The translations under genes were made by a program, and so were the position numbers. From positions 62,001 through 126,000 of the forward strand of contig JAJEBK010000053.1 of NCBI GenBank assembly GCA_022823945.1: 64,000 nucleotides of DNA. Direction: 5' to 3'. The notes beneath the pieces are model-generated. The model had not been told where the DNA came from. It made no database searches and saw nothing but the letters and a program-made list of their open reading frames with translations. Shown here piece after piece: positions 47,296 through 58,170 of the stretch. How positions within the stretch are numbered: the first letter of the stretch is position 1; every line of letters begins with the position of its first letter. This DNA is from Anaerolineae bacterium. Lineage in GTDB: Bacteria > Chloroflexota > Anaerolineae > Aggregatilineales > Phototrophicaceae.

Positions 47296-47539
47296 CCATT
47301 TACAATTGACAGGACCTGCGGTAGACTGCCTGCCAGCGAATAGAGCAGATAACGCATGAGAGTACAATTCCCGGGTTACGGGGTGACCCGCTCTTTCCTT
47401 ATCCAGGGCGCATAAGCAGCCCCTTCTTCACGCTTCCACACTTCTCTCAGTACATATCCAAGCAGGGTTTCTCGCCGCGCAGTTTGCGCCGAGACTTATT
47501 TTGCCGCGCCAGCATCGCCAGGGAGAAAGACCAGACCAT
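47296..47539 (+). other. Leader region of leuS, no gene
   Basis: A hairpin GGGTTAC-ggg-GTGACCC (about 47375-47391), flanked by GAGAG and CTCTT, is followed by TTTCC. It resembles a weak terminator or leader structure for the upstream gene or leuS. The T-box consensus (AGGGTGGNACCGCG) is not found. GGGAGAAAG at 47521 is the likely, somewhat distant, Shine-Dalgarno sequence. Confidence 0.3.
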
Positions 47540-50311
47540 ATGAACCACCGCTATCAACCCAACCAGATCGAAAGCAAGTGGCAGCAGCGCTGGGACGACA
47601 GCCAGCTTTATCGCGCGCGCGTCGACTGGAGCAAGCCCAAGCACTATGCCATGACCATGCTGCCTTATCCATCGGGCGATTTGCATATTGGGCACTGGTT
47701 CGCCATGACGCCCTCCGATGCCCGCGCCCGCTGGATGCGCATGCGCGGCTACAATGTGCTTTTCCCCATGGGCTTCGACGCCTTTGGTCTGCCGGCCGAA
47801 AATGCCGCCATCGCCCGCAACATCCACCCCTGGAAGTGGACTTACGCCAATATCGAACGGATGCGCGAGCAGATGCGCAGCATGGGCGCGATGTTCGATT
47901 GGGAACGCGAAGCCATCTCCTGTACGCCCGGCTATTACAAGTGGTCGGAGTGGTTCTTCAAGAAGTTCTACGAAAACGATATCGCCTATCGTGGCTCGGC
48001 GCTGGTCAACTGGTCGGACACTTTGCAAACTGTGTTGGCAAACGAGCAGGTCATCGATGGCAAGGACGAACGCACCGGGCAGCCGGTCGTCCAGAAGATG
48101 ATGGAGCAGTGGTTTTTCGCTATCACAAAATATGCCGACGAACTGCTGGACTTCGCTGGTCTTGACTGGCCCCCGCCCATCAAAATCATGCAGACCAACT
48201 GGATTGGCCGCAGCGAAGGCGCGCGCGCTACCTTCTATACCGAGCGCGGCGCGCACCCGATCGAGATCTACACAACCCGCCCGGACACCCTGTGGGGCGC
48301 GACCTTCATGGTGCTGGCACCCGAGCATGAACTGGTCGCCCAGATCACGACAGACGAGCGGCGCAAGGCTGTCGAGGCTTATGTGCAGGCGGCGGCGGCG
48401 CGCACCGAAGTCGAGCGCCTGTTTGTCGACCGCGAAAAAACCGGCGTCTTCAGCGGCGCTTATGCCATCAACCCGGTCAACGACGAACGTGTGCCTATCT
48501 GGATTGCCGATTATGTCATGATAACTTATGGCACGGGCGCGATCATGGCAGTGCCCGCCCACGATCAGCGCGACTTTGAATTTGCCCGCGCCCATGACTT
48601 GCCCATCAAAGTGGTCATCCAGCCCGCCGGCATCGCAGAGCCGCTCACAGCAGCCACCATGACCGAAGCCTACGATGGTCCGGGCGCGATGGTCAATTCC
48701 GATGCCATGGATGGCAGCGTCAGCTCCACCGCCAAGGGACGCAAGAATCCGGCTATCAAGCGCGTCATCGACTGGCTGGAAGCGACTGGCAAAGGGCAGG
48801 AATCGGTCAACTACCGCCTGCGCGATTGGCTGATCAGCCGGCAACGATATTGGGGCTGCCCGATTCCTGTTGTATTCCGCAATGGCGAGGTGGAAGCGGT
48901 GCCCGATTACGAGCTGCCGGTCGAACTGCCTGACGATGTCGACTTTGTACCCACCGGCCGCAGCCCGCTGACCTATCACGAACCGTTCTTCAAGGTCGAC
49001 GAGAACACGCGCCGCGAAACCGACACGCTGGATACTTTCATGTGCTCCAGTTGGTATCAGTTGCGTTATCTGTCGCCGGATTGCGACGATGCGCCCTTTG
49101 ATGCCGAAGAAGCTGCCTATTGGCTGCCGGTGGATGTGTATACGGGTGGCGCGGAACACGCTGTGATGCACCTGCTGTATACGCGCTTCTTCACCAAGGC
49201 GCTGCGAGATATCGGCGTATATGACGAGACAGCCGCCGCCATGCGCCGCCATGGGCGCGACCCGGCAGGCGCATTTGACGAACCCATGACCTTGCTGCGC
49301 AATCAGGGCCAAGTGCTGGGTGGCGAGCAGCAGGGACATTTCGTGCTGTGCAGCGGGCGCAAAGTCGGCGAGACCTTGCAAGCCGATCGCGTCGAGGTGG
49401 TTGGCTGGAACGAGGTGCCGGCGGGTTTTGATGGCGTCTTTGGCGAGATCGCGCGGCGCACAGAGCATATCTTGCGCATCGACATGGCTGGCGTCACCCA
49501 GTTGGTCGAAGTCTTGCCACAAGCCGAGATACTCATCCCCGAGATCAAGGGCGCGAACAACATCAACCAACTGCGCCAGCACCTGGAAATCCAGCGCATG
49601 TCAAAAAGCAAGGGCAATGTGGTCAATCCGGACGAGTTGGTGGCGCGTTATGGCGCGGATGTCGTGCGCTGCTACCTGATGTTCAATTTCGACTGGCAGA
49701 AGGGCGGTCCCTGGAACGAGAACAACATCAAGGGTCCGCAGGGCTGGCTGCACGACATCTGGGATATTGCCACGGCTGGCGAACCCGCTGGCGCTGGCGA
49801 TGCGGCTGCCGAGCGCGACATCATCCGCAAGCTGCACCAGTGCATCGCCGTGGTCGACCGCGGGCTGGATAACTTCCACTTCAACACCTCCATAGCCGAG
49901 CAGATGAAGTTCAAAAATGCGCTGAAAGATGCCCTGCGGCGGAACGGAATCGGCGCGGCAGCCTGGCGCGAGATCATGCATGCCGCGATCCGCCTGCTGG
50001 CGCCATTCGCCCCGCACATGGCTGAGGAGCTGTGGGCGCGGCTGGGCTGGGAATACAGCGTGCACACCGCAGCCTGGCCCCAATATGATGCCGAGCTGGC
50101 GCGGGAAGAGTCTGTCGATCTGGTGGTGATGATCAATGGCAAGCCGCGCGAAACCATCGGCGTAGCGGTGGATATCGAGCAGGGGCGGGCGGAAGAATTG
50201 GCGCTGGCGAGTGCAGCCGCCCAACACAGCCTGGCCGGCAAGTCGCCGCGGCGCGTCGTCTATATCCCGGGCCGCAATGGCACAGACCCGAAAGTGAATA
50301 TCGTGGTCTGA
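47540..50311 (+). CDS. leuS: Leucyl-tRNA synthetase
   Basis: The protein is 923 aa. Class I signatures: HIGHW near residue 49 and RMSKS near 685. The CP1 editing domain is present with the Thr-rich ARPAxxx-type TTRPDTLWGATF and GTGAIMAVPAHDQRDFEFA. A ZN1-like segment and the leucine-specific CP1 LMFNFDWQKGGPWN follow; the C-terminal part ends with the anticodon-binding helical domain. It charges tRNA-Leu and edits misactivated valine or isoleucine. Confidence 0.97.
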   Translation: MNHRYQPNQIESKWQQRWDDSQLYRARVDWSKPKHYAMTMLPYPSGDLHIGHWFAMTPSDARARWMRMRGYNVLFPMGFDAFGLPAENAAIARNIHPWKWTYANIERMREQMRSMGAMFDWEREAISCTPGYYKWSEWFFKKFYENDIAYRGSALVNWSDTLQTVLANEQVIDGKDERTGQPVVQKMMEQWFFAITKYADELLDFAGLDWPPPIKIMQTNWIGRSEGARATFYTERGAHPIEIYTTRPDTLWGATFMVLAPEHELVAQITTDERRKAVEAYVQAAAARTEVERLFVDREKTGVFSGAYAINPVNDERVPIWIADYVMITYGTGAIMAVPAHDQRDFEFARAHDLPIKVVIQPAGIAEPLTAATMTEAYDGPGAMVNSDAMDGSVSSTAKGRKNPAIKRVIDWLEATGKGQESVNYRLRDWLISRQRYWGCPIPVVFRNGEVEAVPDYELPVELPDDVDFVPTGRSPLTYHEPFFKVDENTRRETDTLDTFMCSSWYQLRYLSPDCDDAPFDAEEAAYWLPVDVYTGGAEHAVMHLLYTRFFTKALRDIGVYDETAAAMRRHGRDPAGAFDEPMTLLRNQGQVLGGEQQGHFVLCSGRKVGETLQADRVEVVGWNEVPAGFDGVFGEIARRTEHILRIDMAGVTQLVEVLPQAEILIPEIKGANNINQLRQHLEIQRMSKSKGNVVNPDELVARYGADVVRCYLMFNFDWQKGGPWNENNIKGPQGWLHDIWDIATAGEPAGAGDAAAERDIIRKLHQCIAVVDRGLDNFHFNTSIAEQMKFKNALKDALRRNGIGAAAWREIMHAAIRLLAPFAPHMAEELWARLGWEYSVHTAAWPQYDAELAREESVDLVVMINGKPRETIGVAVDIEQGRAEELALASAAAQHSLAGKSPRRVVYIPGRNGTDPKVNIVV

Positions 50312-50343: not shown

Positions 50344-50466
50344 ATGGCGCAATTTCCCCCACCCCAAACCCCTCCCCAAAAATGAGGGAGGGGCTTATAT
50401 TCCGCGGAATCGTTGGGGAAACTCCCCTTCTTCGTTCTGGGGCAAGAGGGGATGGGGGGGTCTTGT
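50344..50466. repeat. Interspersed GC-rich repeat, family C, copy 2
   Basis: Left end TTTCCCCCACCCC, internal CCCCTCCCC...GAGGGAGGGG hairpin, a TTCCGCGGAA palindrome, second hairpin CTCCCCTTCTTCG...AGAGGGG and right end GGGGATGGGGGGG. It has the same order of blocks as 6297-6416. Confidence 0.65.
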
Positions 50467-50577
50467 TGAGAAATCAATGAATCACCACTGCCGGCGATTG
50501 CAATTGCTTGCACAAATGCGCCTGTTGCGCTATACTGCTGCTGTCGACCGCCGCAAGATTAGTAAGGAGCGTGCATC

Positions 50578-50871
50578 ATGCAAAACGGAATTATGGATAT
50601 TGTCGTCGAATACTGCGCCACTTGAGGACACCAACCCAATGCCGTCAGTTTGACGGACGAAATCTTGAACGAACGGGAAATCGAATACTTCATCAGCAGC
50701 TGGAAACTCGTTCCCGGCAGCGGCGGAGTTTTTGATGTCACGGTCAATGGCGAACTGGTTTTTTCCAAGCAAGAAGTTGGACGCCATGCCGAACCGGGCG
50801 AGGTACGCGCAGCTATCAATGCAGCGCTGGATAAAATCCGCCCCGCCGATGTAGAAATGGCCGCCAGCTAG
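50578..50871 (+). CDS. SelW-like Rdx-family protein with an in-frame UGA (candidate selenoprotein)
   Basis: Read from ATG at 50578, which follows AAGGAG by 9 nt, the frame gives 97 codons to TAG, with one internal UGA at 50623-50625. Around it stands EYCAT-UGA-GHQ, i.e. a C-x-x-U redox motif at residues 13-16. The part after the UGA continues SelW/Rdx homology without a break: LVPGSGGVFDVTVNGELVFSK, near the family's GTGGxFEVxxxGxLV(W/Y)S pattern. Rdx proteins are small thioredoxin-fold redox proteins. UGA is most simply read as selenocysteine, supported by a hairpin at 50642-50656. If it is a true stop, the gene would be a truncated pseudogene; a start at TTG 50650 would omit the active site. 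Sec machinery genes are not in the window. Confidence 0.8.
50642..50656 (+). promoter_or_regulatory. Candidate bacterial SECIS hairpin
   Basis: CCGTCA-gtt-TGACGG is a perfect 6-bp stem with a 3-nt loop beginning with G. The loop begins 23 nt after the UGA, within the range expected for bacterial SECIS elements (roughly 16-37 nt with a G near the loop start, as I recall). The stem is in the coding frame, as in bacterial selenoprotein mRNAs. Confidence 0.6.
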
Positions 50872-50941: not shown

Positions 50942-50969
50942 TTGACAGTAAGTTTGAGTTTGTTATATC
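50942..50969 (+). promoter_or_regulatory. Promoter of the amino acid transporter operon
   Basis: TTGACA (50942-50947), then TATATC (50964-50969) 16 nt later, or TATCAT 18 nt later. It lies 55 nt before the binding-protein ATG. Confidence 0.65.
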
Positions 50970-51023
50970 ATGAAGTTGCAGTGCTTTGCAATTTGACCAA
51001 TCTCCAGAGCGAAGGGGGACGAA

Positions 51024-52064
51024 ATGAAGAAGTATACTGTATTGGCAATTTGTGTAATTGGCTTGCTGGCACTGGGCAGCGGGCTGGCGATGGCGCAGGA
51101 CGATGGGCATATCGTTGCGCGCATCATGGATCGCGGCGAAATGATCTGCGGCGTGAACACGGTGCTGCCGGGCTTCGGCACGCAGAACGATGCTGGCGAC
51201 TTTGTTGGTTTTGATGTCGATATTTGCCGCGCTGTAGCTGCCGCTGTGCTGGGCGATGCAGACGCTGTGGCATTCCGCCCCTTGACCGCCGCCGAACGCC
51301 CGACTGCGCTGGCTGGTGGCGAAATTGACATGCTCAGCCGCAACACGACCTGGACACTCAGCCGCGATACCGAATGGGGCGCCACTTTTGGTCCCACGAC
51401 TTTCTATGACGGGCAGGGCATTATGGTCAAGGTGGACTTCGGCGTTACCAACCTCGCCGAACTTGCCGAAGAAAGCGTCACCATGTGCGCCACCGCCGGC
51501 ACGACCACCGAGCTCAACATCACCGACACGGCCAACCGCCTCAATGCCGACTGGGAATTGAACACCTTCCAGGACTTTGACGCGATTATGGACGCCTATG
51601 AAGCGGGCGCTTGCGATGCCTTCACGAGCGATGTGAGCAGCCTCGTTTCGCGCAAAGCGACATCGGTCGATCCAGCCGCGCATCTGATCCTGCCGGAAGT
51701 GATCAGCAAAGAGCCGCTTGGTCCCGTTAGCCCGCAAAGCGATGCGACCTTCGCCGATATCATCCGCTGGACAGTTTGGGGTCTGGTGAGCGCCGAAGAG
51801 ATGGGCATCGACAGCATGAACATCGGTGACTTCATGGACAGCGAAGATGCTGGCATCGGCCGCCTGCTTGGCCTGGGCGACAATGTCGCTGGCGAATACC
51901 TGGGCATCAATGATGAGTTCATGGTCGATGTGATCAGCCAGGTCGGCAACTATGCCGAGATCTTCGACCGCCACCTGGGTCCGGATACGATCTTCGGTCT
52001 GAGTCGCGGCGTCAACGCGCTGTGGACAGACGGCGGCTTGCTCTACGCAGCTCCCTTCCGTTAG
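51024..52064 (+). CDS. Polar amino acid ABC transporter substrate-binding protein (AapJ/BztA-like)
   Basis: The protein is 346 aa with a Sec signal peptide (KKYTVLAICVIGLLALGSGLAMAQ). The mature part follows AapJ: RGEMICGVNTVLPGFG, GFDVDICRAVAAAVLG, GEIDMLSRNTTWTLSRD and VMCATAGTTTE, ending near GLSRGVNALWTDGGLLYA. It captures amino acids outside the membrane for the permease pair encoded downstream. GAAGGGGGACG precedes ATG. A strong terminator after its stop would keep its expression above that of the permeases. Confidence 0.93.
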   Translation: MKKYTVLAICVIGLLALGSGLAMAQDDGHIVARIMDRGEMICGVNTVLPGFGTQNDAGDFVGFDVDICRAVAAAVLGDADAVAFRPLTAAERPTALAGGEIDMLSRNTTWTLSRDTEWGATFGPTTFYDGQGIMVKVDFGVTNLAELAEESVTMCATAGTTTELNITDTANRLNADWELNTFQDFDAIMDAYEAGACDAFTSDVSSLVSRKATSVDPAAHLILPEVISKEPLGPVSPQSDATFADIIRWTVWGLVSAEEMGIDSMNIGDFMDSEDAGIGRLLGLGDNVAGEYLGINDEFMVDVISQVGNYAEIFDRHLGPDTIFGLSRGVNALWTDGGLLYAAPFR

Positions 52065-52307: not shown

Positions 52308-53822
52308 ATGGCAAGCGTCAAGCCCTCACGAAACATAAATGTGTTGCCGCCGATCTTCCGCGACGGGCGCATCTTGCAAGGCATCGCCCAGATCTTGTTT
52401 GTTCTGGTCGTGGCTGTGGCGTTCAACGACCTGGCTGTGCGCATCAATTCCGCGCTGGATGCGACCAACCAAACGCCCAACTTTGAATTCCTGCAAAACC
52501 GCGCCGGCTTTGATATCGCCGACTCGGGCAGCTATTCATCCAATGACCGCTATATTGATGCCTTCAGCGTAGGCTTTACCAATACCCTGCGCGTCGTCTT
52601 GCCAGGGCTGTTGTCGACAACCGTCCTGGGCATGTTGGTTGGCGTGCTGCTGCTGAGTCGCAACTTCCTGGTGCGGACTATCTCGCGCGCCTATGTCGAG
52701 GTGTTGCGCAACACGCCCATCCTCTTGCAGATATTTACCTGGTATTTCGTCGTCATCTTCGCCCTGCCGCCGCAACAAGAATCGATCGCGCTTCCGCAAG
52801 AAGGCATCCGCAGCTTGCCCCTGCTGCAATATGCCCTTTCGCTCATGTTGATCGCTGGCATCTGGCGATACAGCGGCAGCTTGCGGCGCAAGACTTGGCG
52901 AACAATCATGCGCGAAGTCGGCATCGCCATCATCATCCTGGTCAACCTGCTGGGCAGCGAACTGGTAGGCAGCGGCACACCAATTGAATTCCTGCCTGGC
53001 CTATACATCAGCATCAAAGGCGTGGCGATTTTCGAACTGATCCCATCGTCGCTGTTTGGCGTGTGGATGGTCTTCGTGGTTCTTGGCGTGCTCGTGGGGG
53101 CGGCGCTTTGGCGTTACTTCGGCTATATCACCGAGTCGACCGGGCGGCCTACTCCACGCACCAGCGCCGTTGTGATCAGCGTGGTCGGCTTTACACTGTT
53201 GGGCTGGCTGATCATGGGCATGCGCCCGACGCCGTCAGTCATCCAGGTCTATGACGACGACCGCGATGCCGTTGTCGTCATGCCCTACGATGACGCTTTT
53301 GCGTCGGGCTTGCTGACGATCGAACAAGAATTGGAATACTCTCGCCAGCCGCTGCTCTATCGCCCGCCCACCCTGGATCGCCGAGGTCGCAATGTCGAAA
53401 CGGGCATTGAAATTTCGCCGGCCTATCTGGCGGTTTTCCTGGGTTTGGTCATCTATACCTCTGCATTCATCGCCGAGATTGTGCGCGCGGGCATTCAAGC
53501 CGTGCCCAAGGGACAGCTGGAAGCGGCGCGGGCATTGGGCATTTCACAAGGCGACATGTTGCGGCGCATCGTGCTGCCCCAGGCATTGCGCGTCATCATT
53601 CCGCCCCTGGGCAACCAGTTTCTGAATCTGGCGAAGAACTCCAGCCTGGCGATCGCCGTCTCGTATACCGATATATTCCAGGTGACGAACACCATCATCA
53701 ATCAGAGCGGGCAATCTGTAACCGGCATCTTGATGGTTCTCTTGTCTTATCTCATTATCAGCCTGGCGATTTCGCTGATGATGAACATGGTCAATCAGCG
53801 CTTCCAGATTGTTACGAGGTAG
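52308..53822 (+). CDS. Amino acid ABC transporter permease (AapQ/BztB-like), enlarged
   Basis: The protein is 504 aa, against about 400 for AapQ. The N-terminus has the family's FLQNRAGFDI and GFTNTLRVVLPGLL, and the EAA loop is EAARALGISQGDMLRRIVLPQALRVIIPPLGNQFLNLAKNSSLAIAV. Between the early TMs and the EAA loop is an extra segment (about residues 175-360) with its own helices and a hydrophilic stretch (VYDDDRDAVVVMPYDDAFAS, then QPLLYRPPTLDRRGR). AGGAGCG lies just before ATG. Probably forms a heterodimer with the next gene's product. Confidence 0.9.
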   Translation: MASVKPSRNINVLPPIFRDGRILQGIAQILFVLVVAVAFNDLAVRINSALDATNQTPNFEFLQNRAGFDIADSGSYSSNDRYIDAFSVGFTNTLRVVLPGLLSTTVLGMLVGVLLLSRNFLVRTISRAYVEVLRNTPILLQIFTWYFVVIFALPPQQESIALPQEGIRSLPLLQYALSLMLIAGIWRYSGSLRRKTWRTIMREVGIAIIILVNLLGSELVGSGTPIEFLPGLYISIKGVAIFELIPSSLFGVWMVFVVLGVLVGAALWRYFGYITESTGRPTPRTSAVVISVVGFTLLGWLIMGMRPTPSVIQVYDDDRDAVVVMPYDDAFASGLLTIEQELEYSRQPLLYRPPTLDRRGRNVETGIEISPAYLAVFLGLVIYTSAFIAEIVRAGIQAVPKGQLEAARALGISQGDMLRRIVLPQALRVIIPPLGNQFLNLAKNSSLAIAVSYTDIFQVTNTIINQSGQSVTGILMVLLSYLIISLAISLMMNMVNQRFQIVTR

Positions 53823-53825
53823 GCG

Positions 53826-56800
53826 ATGGCAGACCATAGCGTTGACGCCAGCAAAACCATAATCAACCACGCGGACGAGCCGACGCTGCCACCGCCGCGA
53901 GCCGAAGCGGGCATAAGTGGCTGGCTGCGTCAAAACCTCTTTGGCTCGCCGATCGATATCGTTGTCAGCGCGCTGGCTGCGCTGTTGGTCGCCGCGCTGG
54001 CGGTCGGTTTCTTTGACTGGGCTGTGAGAAGCGGCAACTGGTTCGCCATCATCAACAACCAGCGCCTGCTGATGATGGAATCTTTCGAAAGCGCGTTTGA
54101 ATGGCGGCTGGCAATCATCGTGCTGCTATCGGCTTTTTTGACCGGCATCAGCCTGGCTGCCTGGGCGCGGGCTGCCGCGCGTACGCTGACGATGCTGGCG
54201 CTGGCGGTCATTGTGGTGGTGACGCTGTTGCCGCGGCTTATCGAAGCGAGCATCGACCAGCCCAAATCGTACTTCGCGGCTGGCAATGTTGATATCATCG
54301 ACCGCGCTTCTGCATTGACGCCCCAGCGCAACCTGGCTTTTATCGCCGCGGCTGGCGAAACTGTGTCCGTCAGCCTGGCGCTGGACGAAGTCGCTGATAT
54401 CGAAACCCTGCGCGGGTTGGCCGGTTTTTCCGACCGAGCGACCAATGCGCTGGCAAATGCCGCCAACAACCGCATTGAACAGCAGCATACGACCGGCGAG
54501 ACATTCGACCGCATGCTCAGTGGCGAGCTGACCGAGTCTCTGGAAGAACGCACTCGCCTCAGCATCCGCACCTTCCGGCGCACCAACGACATGCTCGCTT
54601 CGACCCGCGAGTTCGTGGAATCCACCGGCGCGCGATTGACCCAAAACGATGCGACAATCGCAGAAATGCGCTGGTGGCTGGACAGGCTGAAAGCGGCGGC
54701 GCGCGCAACCGACCCACGCCAGGAAACAATCCTGGACGCGATCGTGCCCCTGGAAGATGGCATCAAGAATTTGTCGGTGAATGAAGCGCTGCCTGCGCAG
54801 CTGCATGAGGCGCTCGCCAATTTGACTGCCACCACGCTCGCCAGCGACCAATTGGAAGATCTGGGCGAGCTGCTGGTCGTGCAATTGTCCGAAGACCTGA
54901 TCGGCGAACCCGACCAGAGCGATGACGACGAGGAGCTGATCAACCCATCAGCAAGAGAAGCCGCCTTCTTGCGCGACATGTTCGTGCGCCTGCTGACACC
55001 CCAATCGGTGCTGGATATTTATCAACTGGGGCAAGCGCCAATGCAAGTCGCCATACGCGACGCCCGCAGCCTGGAAGCGCTGGCAGAGGGCGTATTGAGC
55101 GCTGCTGGCGATCAGGTGACATTCACTGTCCCGCGCGACGGCTGGTATATCTTCAGCAAAAATGCCGCCGAGGGCCACACCGGCAGCGCCATCCTGTCTG
55201 TATATGGCATTCATCCCATCATTGAGCGCACGCTCAGCCCCACCGAATCGCGATTTGTGCGCGTAAATGACAATTCTTTGGTGATCCGAGAATCGCGCCC
55301 GCAGATTGACGACAGCAATATCCCCTTCGTGGTGCTGATCGACAATCAATTCCGCGGACTTCGCAATGTTCAGACCTACCTCATCCACTTCGTCCCACCT
55401 TTCTTTATGCAGGTTGAGGCGCTGCTGTTGCCTTTCTTCATCACGGTCGTATGGGGGTTTGTATTTGGGCGCTGCATGGCGCATATGCTCGGCGAGCAGT
55501 CGGTATTCAATGCGCCCGAAAATCGACTGGTGGTCATGGCTTGGGCTGCTTCGCCCCTGTTGGTCTTGATTGCCTATTTCGTGGTGGTGGCTGGCGGCGG
55601 CCTGATAGGCATTCCCAGAGTCGCGCTGCAACTCGCGGCGGCATTTGGCGTTGTAGAACTGGCGCGGCGCATCGAAGCCTGGCTGAGCCGCAGCAACCCG
55701 GGCGAAGAGGCGGAAGGTTCGCTGAATCGGCTGCTGCTGTATGGCTGGGTCGCTTTCCCCTTTGTCATGTATGTGATGGCATCGGGAGTGGGTGGCTTGT
55801 CGGGCGCAGCATTGGCCAGCGGCCTGGCAGGCTTGCTCTGGCTGCTGGTGATGCTGTGCGTGGGCATGTTGTACCGTGGCACGCTGGGTTATGCGCTGCT
55901 GGCTGGCGGATTTTTCCTGCCGCTGCTTGGCGCGCATATTATCAACCTGGTCTGGGCGGGTTGGACGACTGAGTCTATTTCGTCATTGGCGTTGTGGCTG
56001 GCGCTGGCGACTGTGGGCATGCTGGCGGGGCTTCTCGGCGAGTCCATGCGCAGCAGCTTGTCTTTTTCGGTCAAGCGCGCAGGCTATCTGCTAGGCTGCC
56101 TGGCTTTTGTTTTCGTCTTTGTTGATATCAACCTGCTGGCTGGCGATGACATGACGGGCTTGCTGGCGGGTGCGGGATTTGCGCTTTGGCTGGGCTGGAT
56201 GTTCTTCGGCGGTGCCCTGCAGTGGAACTCAAACCGCATCATCATTGGCTTACTGCTTTTGACTTTTCTGTGGCTGGGTGCCTGGACATCGCTGGATCGC
56301 ACCTCAAGCGCATTCTTCATCGTCTGGCTGGTTGCGGGCGCATTCGCATTCAAACGCGGCGAGTCTGAACAAGGCGCGCTGGGCAGCCGCAAGGGACCTG
56401 CTGGCGCGTTGATGCACAGGCTGGGCAGCACCCCAGCGCGCAGCCTGGTTGTGACGGGCGGCCTGTGGCTGGCGACGCTCCTGCTCTTGCCAAGTTTGAT
56501 GACCGGGCTGGAAGCGCAGGGCATTTTGCAAACATCGGCGTCCGACCTGCTGCCTGTATCGGACAAGCGGCTGTGGGGCGGTTTGTTGCTGACCATGCAG
56601 CTGACGATATTGGGCGTGGGCGCGTCCTTCCCGATCGGCCTGGCTTTGGCGCTGGGACGGCGCAGCTCATTGCCGGTCGTTAAGACAGCCTGCATCCTCT
56701 ACATTGAAGCGGTGCGCGGCGTTCCGTTGATCACGGTGCTCTTCATGGCGACGCTGCTGGTGCCGCTGATCGACCCCACTCTGGCGACAATCGAAGGGGC

Positions 56801-57218
56801 AGTGCGCGCCTGGGTGGGCATCACCATGTTCAGCGCGGCTTACCTGGCAGAAAATGTCCGTGGCGGCTTGCAGTCTATCGGGCGCGGGCAAACAGAAGCG
56901 GCGCAGGCGATTGGCTTGTCTACCTGGCAGACGACCCTGCATATATTGCTGCCACAGGCTTTGCGGGCGGTCATCCCGGCGCTGGTCGGGCAATTTATCT
57001 CGCTCTTCAAAGATACTTCGCTGGTCTACATCGTGGGCTTGGCGGAGATTTTGGGCATCGCCCAACGCGTGGTCGCACAGCCCGAATACTTGCAGCGGCG
57101 TCAGGAAACATTCCTGTATGTCGCCATCGTCTACTTCGTCTTCAGCTACATCATGTCCTACATCAGCCGCAAGGTCGAAGCGACGGGTTCGGGCGCGGTG
57201 CGAGCAGAACGGCTCTAG
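53826..57218 (+). CDS. Giant AapM/BztC-like amino acid permease with a large insert
   Basis: The protein is 1130 aa, against about 400 for AapM. Residues 28-80 match the AapM start (SGWLRQNLFGSPIDIVVSALAAL). Canonical sequence resumes at about 863 (MHRLGSTPARSLVVTGG) and includes the EAA loop near 1024 (EAAQAIGLSTWQTTLHILLPQALRAVIPALVGQ). Between them lie two helices (93-136), an apparently exported region of about 380 residues (137-515) rich in helical, coiled-coil-like sequence with a beta-rich end (QVTFTVPRDGWYIFSKNA), then many membrane segments (520-860). The insert has no counterpart in known AapM. It may sense an external signal or modulate gating; that is inference. Starts 4 nt after the AapQ-like stop, 33 nt before the ATPase gene. 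Confidence 0.85.
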   Translation: MADHSVDASKTIINHADEPTLPPPRAEAGISGWLRQNLFGSPIDIVVSALAALLVAALAVGFFDWAVRSGNWFAIINNQRLLMMESFESAFEWRLAIIVLLSAFLTGISLAAWARAAARTLTMLALAVIVVVTLLPRLIEASIDQPKSYFAAGNVDIIDRASALTPQRNLAFIAAAGETVSVSLALDEVADIETLRGLAGFSDRATNALANAANNRIEQQHTTGETFDRMLSGELTESLEERTRLSIRTFRRTNDMLASTREFVESTGARLTQNDATIAEMRWWLDRLKAAARATDPRQETILDAIVPLEDGIKNLSVNEALPAQLHEALANLTATTLASDQLEDLGELLVVQLSEDLIGEPDQSDDDEELINPSAREAAFLRDMFVRLLTPQSVLDIYQLGQAPMQVAIRDARSLEALAEGVLSAAGDQVTFTVPRDGWYIFSKNAAEGHTGSAILSVYGIHPIIERTLSPTESRFVRVNDNSLVIRESRPQIDDSNIPFVVLIDNQFRGLRNVQTYLIHFVPPFFMQVEALLLPFFITVVWGFVFGRCMAHMLGEQSVFNAPENRLVVMAWAASPLLVLIAYFVVVAGGGLIGIPRVALQLAAAFGVVELARRIEAWLSRSNPGEEAEGSLNRLLLYGWVAFPFVMYVMASGVGGLSGAALASGLAGLLWLLVMLCVGMLYRGTLGYALLAGGFFLPLLGAHIINLVWAGWTTESISSLALWLALATVGMLAGLLGESMRSSLSFSVKRAGYLLGCLAFVFVFVDINLLAGDDMTGLLAGAGFALWLGWMFFGGALQWNSNRIIIGLLLLTFLWLGAWTSLDRTSSAFFIVWLVAGAFAFKRGESEQGALGSRKGPAGALMHRLGSTPARSLVVTGGLWLATLLLLPSLMTGLEAQGILQTSASDLLPVSDKRLWGGLLLTMQLTILGVGASFPIGLALALGRRSSLPVVKTACILYIEAVRGVPLITVLFMATLLVPLIDPTLATIEGAVRAWVGITMFSAAYLAENVRGGLQSIGRGQTEAAQAIGLSTWQTTLHILLPQALRAVIPALVGQFISLFKDTSLVYIVGLAEILGIAQRVVAQPEYLQRRQETFLYVAIVYFVFSYIMSYISRKVEATGSGAVRAERL

Positions 57219-58043: not shown

Positions 58044-58170
58044 TCAACCCCCCTCAATCCCCCCGACAGGTCAGGAGGAGTATATATCACGAGCGGATTC
58101 TGTCGTCATGTCGTGAGACAGTTCCCGAAACTCCCCTCTCCGACTCGTCGGGGAGGGGTCGGGGGGGTGA
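58044..58170. repeat. Composite repeat: family B copy 3 and a family C-type hairpin
   Basis: CCCCCCTCAAT, CCCCGACAGGTCAGG and GCGGATTCTGTCGTCATG (58047-58110) follow the order of the 32281 copy. A GC hairpin with arms CCCCTC / GAGGGG and a GGGGGG run follow. It lies in the gap after the transporter operon; no gene between 58023 and 58203. Confidence 0.65.

Follow-up and report, generated by a model that had tools for sequence, protein, structure and literature searches.

A predicted selenoprotein W-like gene with an in-frame UGA codon and a SECIS-like hairpin in an Anaerolineae bacterium

Our analysis of a stretch of 64,000 nucleotides (the window) from contig JAJEBK010000053.1 of an Anaerolineae bacterium (assembly GCA_022823945.1) points to a gene, here called selW, for a bacterial SelW-like (Rdx family) selenoprotein with a thioredoxin fold, whose in-frame UGA would be decoded as selenocysteine (Sec) by means of SelB and a hairpin in the mRNA. 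We assign this reading a probability of about 0.96, and within it we infer the insertion of Sec, the binding of SelB and the redox activity. The preliminary description of this DNA, made from its letters, had proposed a probable selenoprotein W-like gene with an in-frame UGA and a SECIS-like hairpin; this proposal is supported by the Sec machinery of the genome, the identity of residue 16 in the relatives, the covariation in the hairpin and the truncated entries in the databases. The features of the gene and its surroundings are summarized in Table 1.

In the proposed mechanism, SelD would activate the selenium that SelA attaches to tRNA-Sec, and SelB carrying Sec-tRNA-Sec would decode the UGA at codon 16 after its recruitment by the hairpin, the apical loop (G-U-U) of which begins 23 nt downstream of the UGA. 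The 97-residue product would carry the sequence Cys13-Ala-Thr-Sec16 between its first strand and its first helix, and would most likely be a thiol/selenol redox protein.

Table 1. Features of the predicted selW gene and its neighbours (positions in the window)
Feature	Position	Strand	Remarks
Leucyl-tRNA synthetase gene (leuS), upstream neighbour	47501..50311	+	Pfam matches; UGA used as stop
Shine-Dalgarno-like AAGGAG	50564..50569	+	Read directly; ATG 8 nt further on
selW-like selenoprotein gene (predicted)	50578..50871	+	97 residues; ATG start; TAG stop at 50869-50871
Cys13 codon, opening the CxxU motif	50614..50616	+	Cys in 202/202 scored loci
In-frame UGA, residue 16, predicted selenocysteine	50623..50625	+	202 scored loci: 192 TGA, 7 TGT, 3 TGC
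bSECIS-like hairpin CCGUCA-GUU-UGACGG	50642..50656	+	93.0% of cells paired; double changes at 6/6 pairs; 136 sequences
Apical-loop guanine, middle base of codon 24	50648	+	G in 153/153 distinct TGA sequences
73-aa ORF from TTG (74 codons with stop)	50650..50871	+	Fragment expected from standard gene callers
Family 3 solute-binding protein gene (ABC transporter), downstream neighbour	51024..52064	+	PF00497

Reading frame, protein family and annotation

Direct reading of the window from 50564 to 50871 confirmed the AAGGAG, the ATG and the frame of 97 codons with a single UGA that had been noticed before, the TGA at codon 16 being the sole stop within these codons. The ATG start is found in all 36 sequences of the genus and the family (window included). 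The C-x-x-UGA also lies at the redox position, as had been described, in the context Cys-Ala-Thr-TGA-Gly-His-Gln-Pro. When the TGA was taken as U, the protein matched the Pfam family Rdx (PF10262) with 57.1 bits (cut-off 22.6) over residues 8-81, a match that bears out the claimed homology to SelW/Rdx on either side of the UGA, and it also matched TIGR02174, the model of the SelT/SelW/SelH subfamily, with 49.5 bits (cut-off 34.2). The frame and the two-sided homology to Rdx are beyond chance. The score against the equivalog model SelTWH_Campy (NF041051) was 74.6 bits and thus under the cut-off of 88, and in this respect the protein differs from the Campylobacter-type SelW.

The AlphaFold2 model of the product (pLDDT 83.0, pTM 0.76) has a strand at residues 6-13, the CxxU loop, a helix at residues 19-30, three more strands and a last helix, and predicts a thioredoxin-like fold. 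The best PDB matches of the model in Foldseek were the SelW-related structures 2fa8, 2oka, 2obk, 3dex, 2p0g and 2ojl, followed by mouse SelW and thioredoxins. Five of the SelW-related structures (2fa8, 2obk, 2oka, 2p0g and 3dex) resemble the model with TM scores of 0.64-0.70 by query length, and 3dex and 2fa8, both of which were aligned residue by residue, have Cys where the window protein has the predicted Sec. Mouse selenoprotein W (2npb) is a weak match in sequence (E 0.012) and matches in fold with E 1.1e-3 and a TM score of 0.51 by query length. A passage of PMC8508763 gives the motif of mammalian SelW as CxxU, the same as in the window protein, whereas the eukaryotic SECIS is placed in the 3' untranslated region (passage of PMC2398784), unlike the in-frame hairpin of the window.

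The expectation that ordinary gene callers would take the 74-codon fragment beginning at the TTG at 50650 agreed with our ORF search, which gave exactly such an ORF, and the database relatives are similarly short. Entry P0003 (73 aa) shows 93% identity to this fragment. Of the 190 database relatives matched, 120 were listed, and 104 of these, all of 64-79 aa, are without residue 16. Such fragments, reported by database annotation (P0003 and others), would favour the alternative that the UGA is a true stop, that the 73-residue fragment is expressed from the TTG and that the upstream part is a leader peptide or a relic. A protein of this kind, however, would lose the first strand and the entire CxxU motif, and codons 1-15 are constrained like the fragment, with pN/pS values of 0.169 in codons 1-15 versus 0.197 in codons 25-90 (29 genus sequences) and of 0.284 versus 0.279 (36 family sequences). 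Judging from these ratios, codons 1-15, which precede the UGA, evidently are coding and under purifying selection. Moreover, Cys13 is retained in every scored locus (Table 1), and Cys replaces the UGA in G146 (locus L057), a genome of the family in which SelA, SelB and SelD are not found over their cut-offs. We consider it very unlikely that the UGA acts as a true stop; selW is almost certainly a genuine and ordinary, but usually mis-annotated, selenoprotein gene.

We also surveyed the other UGA-containing frames of the window. Among 94 frames with one or two UGA codons and at least 80 residues, seven had a Cys three residues from the UGA; the six besides selW lie to at least 94% within longer ordinary ORFs and were rejected as further candidates. 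The Pfam scan of three more UGA frames outside ordinary ORFs detected no domain spanning any UGA.

Residue 16 and the selenocysteine machinery in the relatives

The nearest named relatives of the window protein come from metagenome-assembled genomes of Anaerolineae or Chloroflexi, with identities of up to 95%. One scan of genome contigs provided 33 loci of relatives, and the SelW searches gave a match in 111 of the 249 genomes of the class and in 68 of the 98 genomes of the window's family. We collected 209 loci (L019-L227, the window being L052), 202 of which aligned over residue 16; the unscored loci (L143, L149, L161, L173, L185, L192 and L194) are weak matches from the class with no tblastn hit to the query. 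Over the 202 scored loci, which include the window as well as species present twice owing to two overlapping collections and are not independent genomes, residue 16 is encoded by UGA in 192 and by a Cys codon in 10 (Table 1), and no other codon was found. The 16 database proteins that cover this residue have Cys in 14 cases, Trp in one (P0001) and Arg in one (P0002). The preliminary description had expected Sec or Cys at this position; this was the case in all of the scored loci, but not in the latter two of the 16 database proteins.

P0001 and P0002 could be taken to suggest that the UGA is read as Trp, Arg or Cys through suppression or a changed code. However, UGA terminates leuS in the window and appears to terminate a polysaccharide-synthesis gene, the genome has tRNA-Sec together with SelA, SelB and SelD, and Cys codons are the only non-TGA codons at residue 16 among the scored loci, so that we regard a reading as one of these other residues as extremely unlikely and retain Sec as the predicted residue. 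In P0001 and P0002 themselves, the Trp or Arg at the Sec position is surrounded by residues of the UGA type, and Ser24, the commonest residue at its position among the UGA forms, is kept. Because Ser24 is retained as in most UGA forms, our guess from these sequences is that the two proteins may represent a UGA that was translated with a different code table, or else a recent substitution.

A lone in-frame stop in one draft genome is sometimes an error, and on this general ground the UGA might be ascribed to sequencing or assembly, or to a young pseudogene mutation. Yet TGA recurs in many separate assemblies of a bacterial class and is found at the same place in four Actinomycetota loci (L047-L050). 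An error or pseudogene is thus refuted by the comparison of relatives, and we give it a negligible probability beside the reading of the UGA as Sec.

The assembly of the window (3.51 Mb, 94% complete) contains a tRNA-Sec identified by ARAGORN as well as SelA (546 bits), SelB (336 bits) and SelD (392 bits), and the SelA gene lies on the window's own contig, approximately 54 kb past the end of the window. Hence all four components of the Sec machinery that had been named as worth checking are present in the genome. Note that the covariance model of tRNA-Sec alone was unspecific, as tRNA-Ser also scored above its cut-off; ARAGORN was therefore used for the decision. The SelD of the same genome (L016, 1483-2535) is itself a predicted selenoprotein, with Cys-Ala-Gly-TGA at codon 17 and a predicted hairpin, CGCAG-GTT-CTGCG, the loop of which is separated from the TGA by 33 nt and is the same GTT triloop as in selW. 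Formate dehydrogenase, considered as another selenoprotein of the genome, gave one match over the cut-off, in which there was no in-frame stop.

The UGA form of selW is present in 66 of the 98 family genomes, and SelA was found in 64 of these 66 and in 11 of the 32 others (Fisher test, P = 1.9e-11, uncorrected for relatedness; within-genus permutation, P = 5e-5). For this count, G285 was regarded as SelA-positive, its match being cut by the contig end (254.8 versus the cut-off of 267.9 bits). Both UGA genomes without SelA (G271 and G336) have SelB over the cut-off, and G271 also has SelD; no SelD match was found in G336 (68% complete). G300, which like G146 has Cys forms only, also has no SelA, SelB or SelD over the cut-offs. 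Of the 249 genomes of the class, 208 have SelA over the cut-off. Inspection of the class listing by eye gave three genomes (G132, G188 and G205; 77-86% complete) that have a TGA-bearing match with no SelA match listed, and one (G047; 81% complete) that has a TGA-bearing match with a weak SelA match only. Elsewhere in the class, Cys forms occur beside SelA in G135 and G153, and the Cys form therefore needs no loss of the machinery.

The hairpin downstream of the UGA

The stem of the hairpin (50642-50647 with 50651-50656) consists of six Watson-Crick pairs, and the loop GTT occupies 50648-50650. The hairpin starts 16 nt past the UGA with 22 nt between the UGA and the loop; the first base of the loop is thus 23 nt past the last base of the UGA, which confirms the earlier observation of a perfect stem-loop with a G at the start of its loop. 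According to a passage of PMC13188914, a bacterial SECIS has a stem of 4-16 bp, a loop of 3-9 nt, a distance of 16-37 nt from the UGA to the loop, a G at the first or second position of the loop and a minimum free energy of -7.5 kcal/mol or below. The hairpin of the window satisfies the values for stem, loop, guanine and distance (6 bp, GUU and 22 nt), and its minimum free energy was -8.6 or -8.8 kcal/mol with the leader and -6.5 kcal/mol for the 15 nt alone. At the gathering cut-offs of Rfam, the window gave a tRNA and nothing else. Recognition of the SECIS is probably in part species-specific.

We rejected single-sequence folding as a proof of the SECIS. The hairpin region of the window folds no better than shuffled sequences (z = -0.89, -0.92 and -1.22, that is, about -1), with z = -4.0 for the 15-nt hairpin excised alone. 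When the same peptide was recoded synonymously, 9% of the recodings reached all six pairs in this register, and 19% gave some equally long stem in the SECIS range. The hairpin is strong evidence because of the comparison with relatives, not because of the single sequence.

For this comparison, the hairpins were counted on distinct 48-mers (153 with TGA and 9 with Cys), and alignment A1 comprised 136 of the 153 distinct TGA sequences after near-identical members of the genus had been thinned. The stem variants among the relatives include CCGUCA/UGACGG, CGGUCA/UGACCG, CCAUCA/UGAUGG and UCGUCA/UGACGA. With sequence kinship uncorrected, A1 showed 55 double-change cells versus 14.8 in shuffles (0 of 500 reached the observed value), and slid registers gave no more than 26. 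Each of the six pairs has double changes, as was also the case in 11 of 500 shuffles. At least five pairs are formed in 141 of the 153 distinct UGA sequences, as compared with a mean of 52 and a maximum of 65 when synonymous recoding was repeated 300 times, and in none of the 9 distinct Cys sequences, for which recoding predicts 0.8. The within-column permutation of synonymous codons keeps the codons of each column and is therefore informative only about how the two arms are linked. It left a modest margin, with 88.9% pairing versus 92.3% observed and, again with kinship uncorrected, 41.6 double-change cells versus 55 observed (0 of 500 permutations reached the observed value in either case), with double changes at all six pairs in 124 of 500. 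Fewer than five pairs in this register were found in 12 of the 153 distinct TGA sequences, including L047-L050. These Actinomycetota loci keep the TGA with at most three of the six pairs, and their SECIS may sit elsewhere.

The guanine at the start of the loop is invariant among the distinct TGA sequences (Table 1), and residue 24, to whose codon it belongs, is Ser in 103 (all AGY), Arg in 46 and Gly in 4 of the 153 distinct UGA forms, counts that represent related sequences rather than independent events. At the corresponding position the 9 distinct Cys loci, a small set, carry Ala, Trp, Asp, Glu, Thr or Ser, and the 14 Cys proteins from the database carry Ala, Asp, Glu, Gly, Asn or Gln. Within the genus, the synonymous rate is 0.254 in codons 17-24, versus 0.414 before and 0.543 after them, a dip that would be explained by an RNA signal overlapping the frame, as such a signal is expected to lower this rate. 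The higher pN/pS in codons 17-24 (0.285 in the genus and 0.661 in the family) would follow from the same lowering of the synonymous rate. Judging from the residues at position 24, it seems fairly likely that in this lineage the SECIS signal, rather than the function of the protein, holds the loop base constant and in this way restricts residue 24, in which case the loss of SelA, SelB and SelD would allow the switch to Cys and free residue 24.

Neighbouring genes and known SelW-like selenoproteins

A relative of the downstream solute-binding protein gene follows selW in 27 of the 28 genus loci (L019-L046), L040 ending soon after selW, and leuS-like sequence is present in the flank of 18 of the 28 (on the opposite strand in L034). 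There is a promoter-like site between selW and the transporter gene (50942-50971; 11 of 12 consensus bases) and a weaker one before selW (50509-50536; 9 of 12), and because of these sites we do not read a functional link into the neighbours of selW. Two ABC transporter permease genes are located at 52308-53822 and 53826-57218. The longer one encodes 1130 aa, in which Pfam recognized the permease domain at residues 935-1115 only, with approximately 930 residues outside any match. The intergenic sequence CCCCAAACCCCTCCCC lies amid C and G runs at 50362-50377, and its second copy lies on the opposite strand at 58150-58165 with 2 mismatches. These two matches in the window, versus 0.05 expected from shuffles, suggest that CCCCAAACCCCTCCCC is perhaps a dispersed intergenic repeat.

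SelW-like (SELENOW-like, PF10262) selenoproteins with CxxU are listed as a bacterial family in passages of PMC13188914 and PMC9312934, and the excerpted ocean metagenome survey places SelW-like proteins, with SelD, among the most widespread selenoproteins (PMC2398784). The window protein has the Pfam family and the CxxU in common with those of PMC13188914, whereas the passages of PMC13188914 and PMC2398784 do not name Chloroflexota or Anaerolineae for SelW. It was noted in 2006 that organisms using Sec have very few, if any, Cys homologues of SelW-like proteins, and three selenoproteins were counted in Chloroflexi, in a passage that does not contain their names (both from passages of PMC1794560). 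For Campylobacter jejuni SelW, decoding through the UGA was shown by Ribo-seq, with ribosomes present beyond the UGA and terminating at the stop of the full-length frame, and by proteomics (passage of PMC11955535), and an excerpt of PMC4607533 reports that the SelW genes of Epsilonproteobacteria were missed by annotation; these genes are, like the gene in the window, short, with an in-frame UGA and overlooked by annotation. The titles and displayed abstracts for SelW with Chloroflexi, selenoprotein with Anaerolineae and selenocysteine with Chloroflexota did not describe the gene, and the available text of PMC12013277 contains none of the terms SelW, SELENOW, Chloroflex and Anaerolin. The family of SelW-like selenoproteins is already known, and the gene in the window is a further member in an unannotated form.

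The selW gene of the window thus leaves the understanding of how selenoproteins are made unchanged. It indicates a systematic annotation error, through which most of the listed database relatives (104 of 120) miss their active-site residue, and it presents one bacterial family in which the UGA form closely corresponds to the presence of the Sec machinery. A constraint at the RNA level is seemingly visible in the protein sequence of SelW and, if this is true, the relatives would constitute a natural replicate set for the Sec-to-Cys conversion in SelW.
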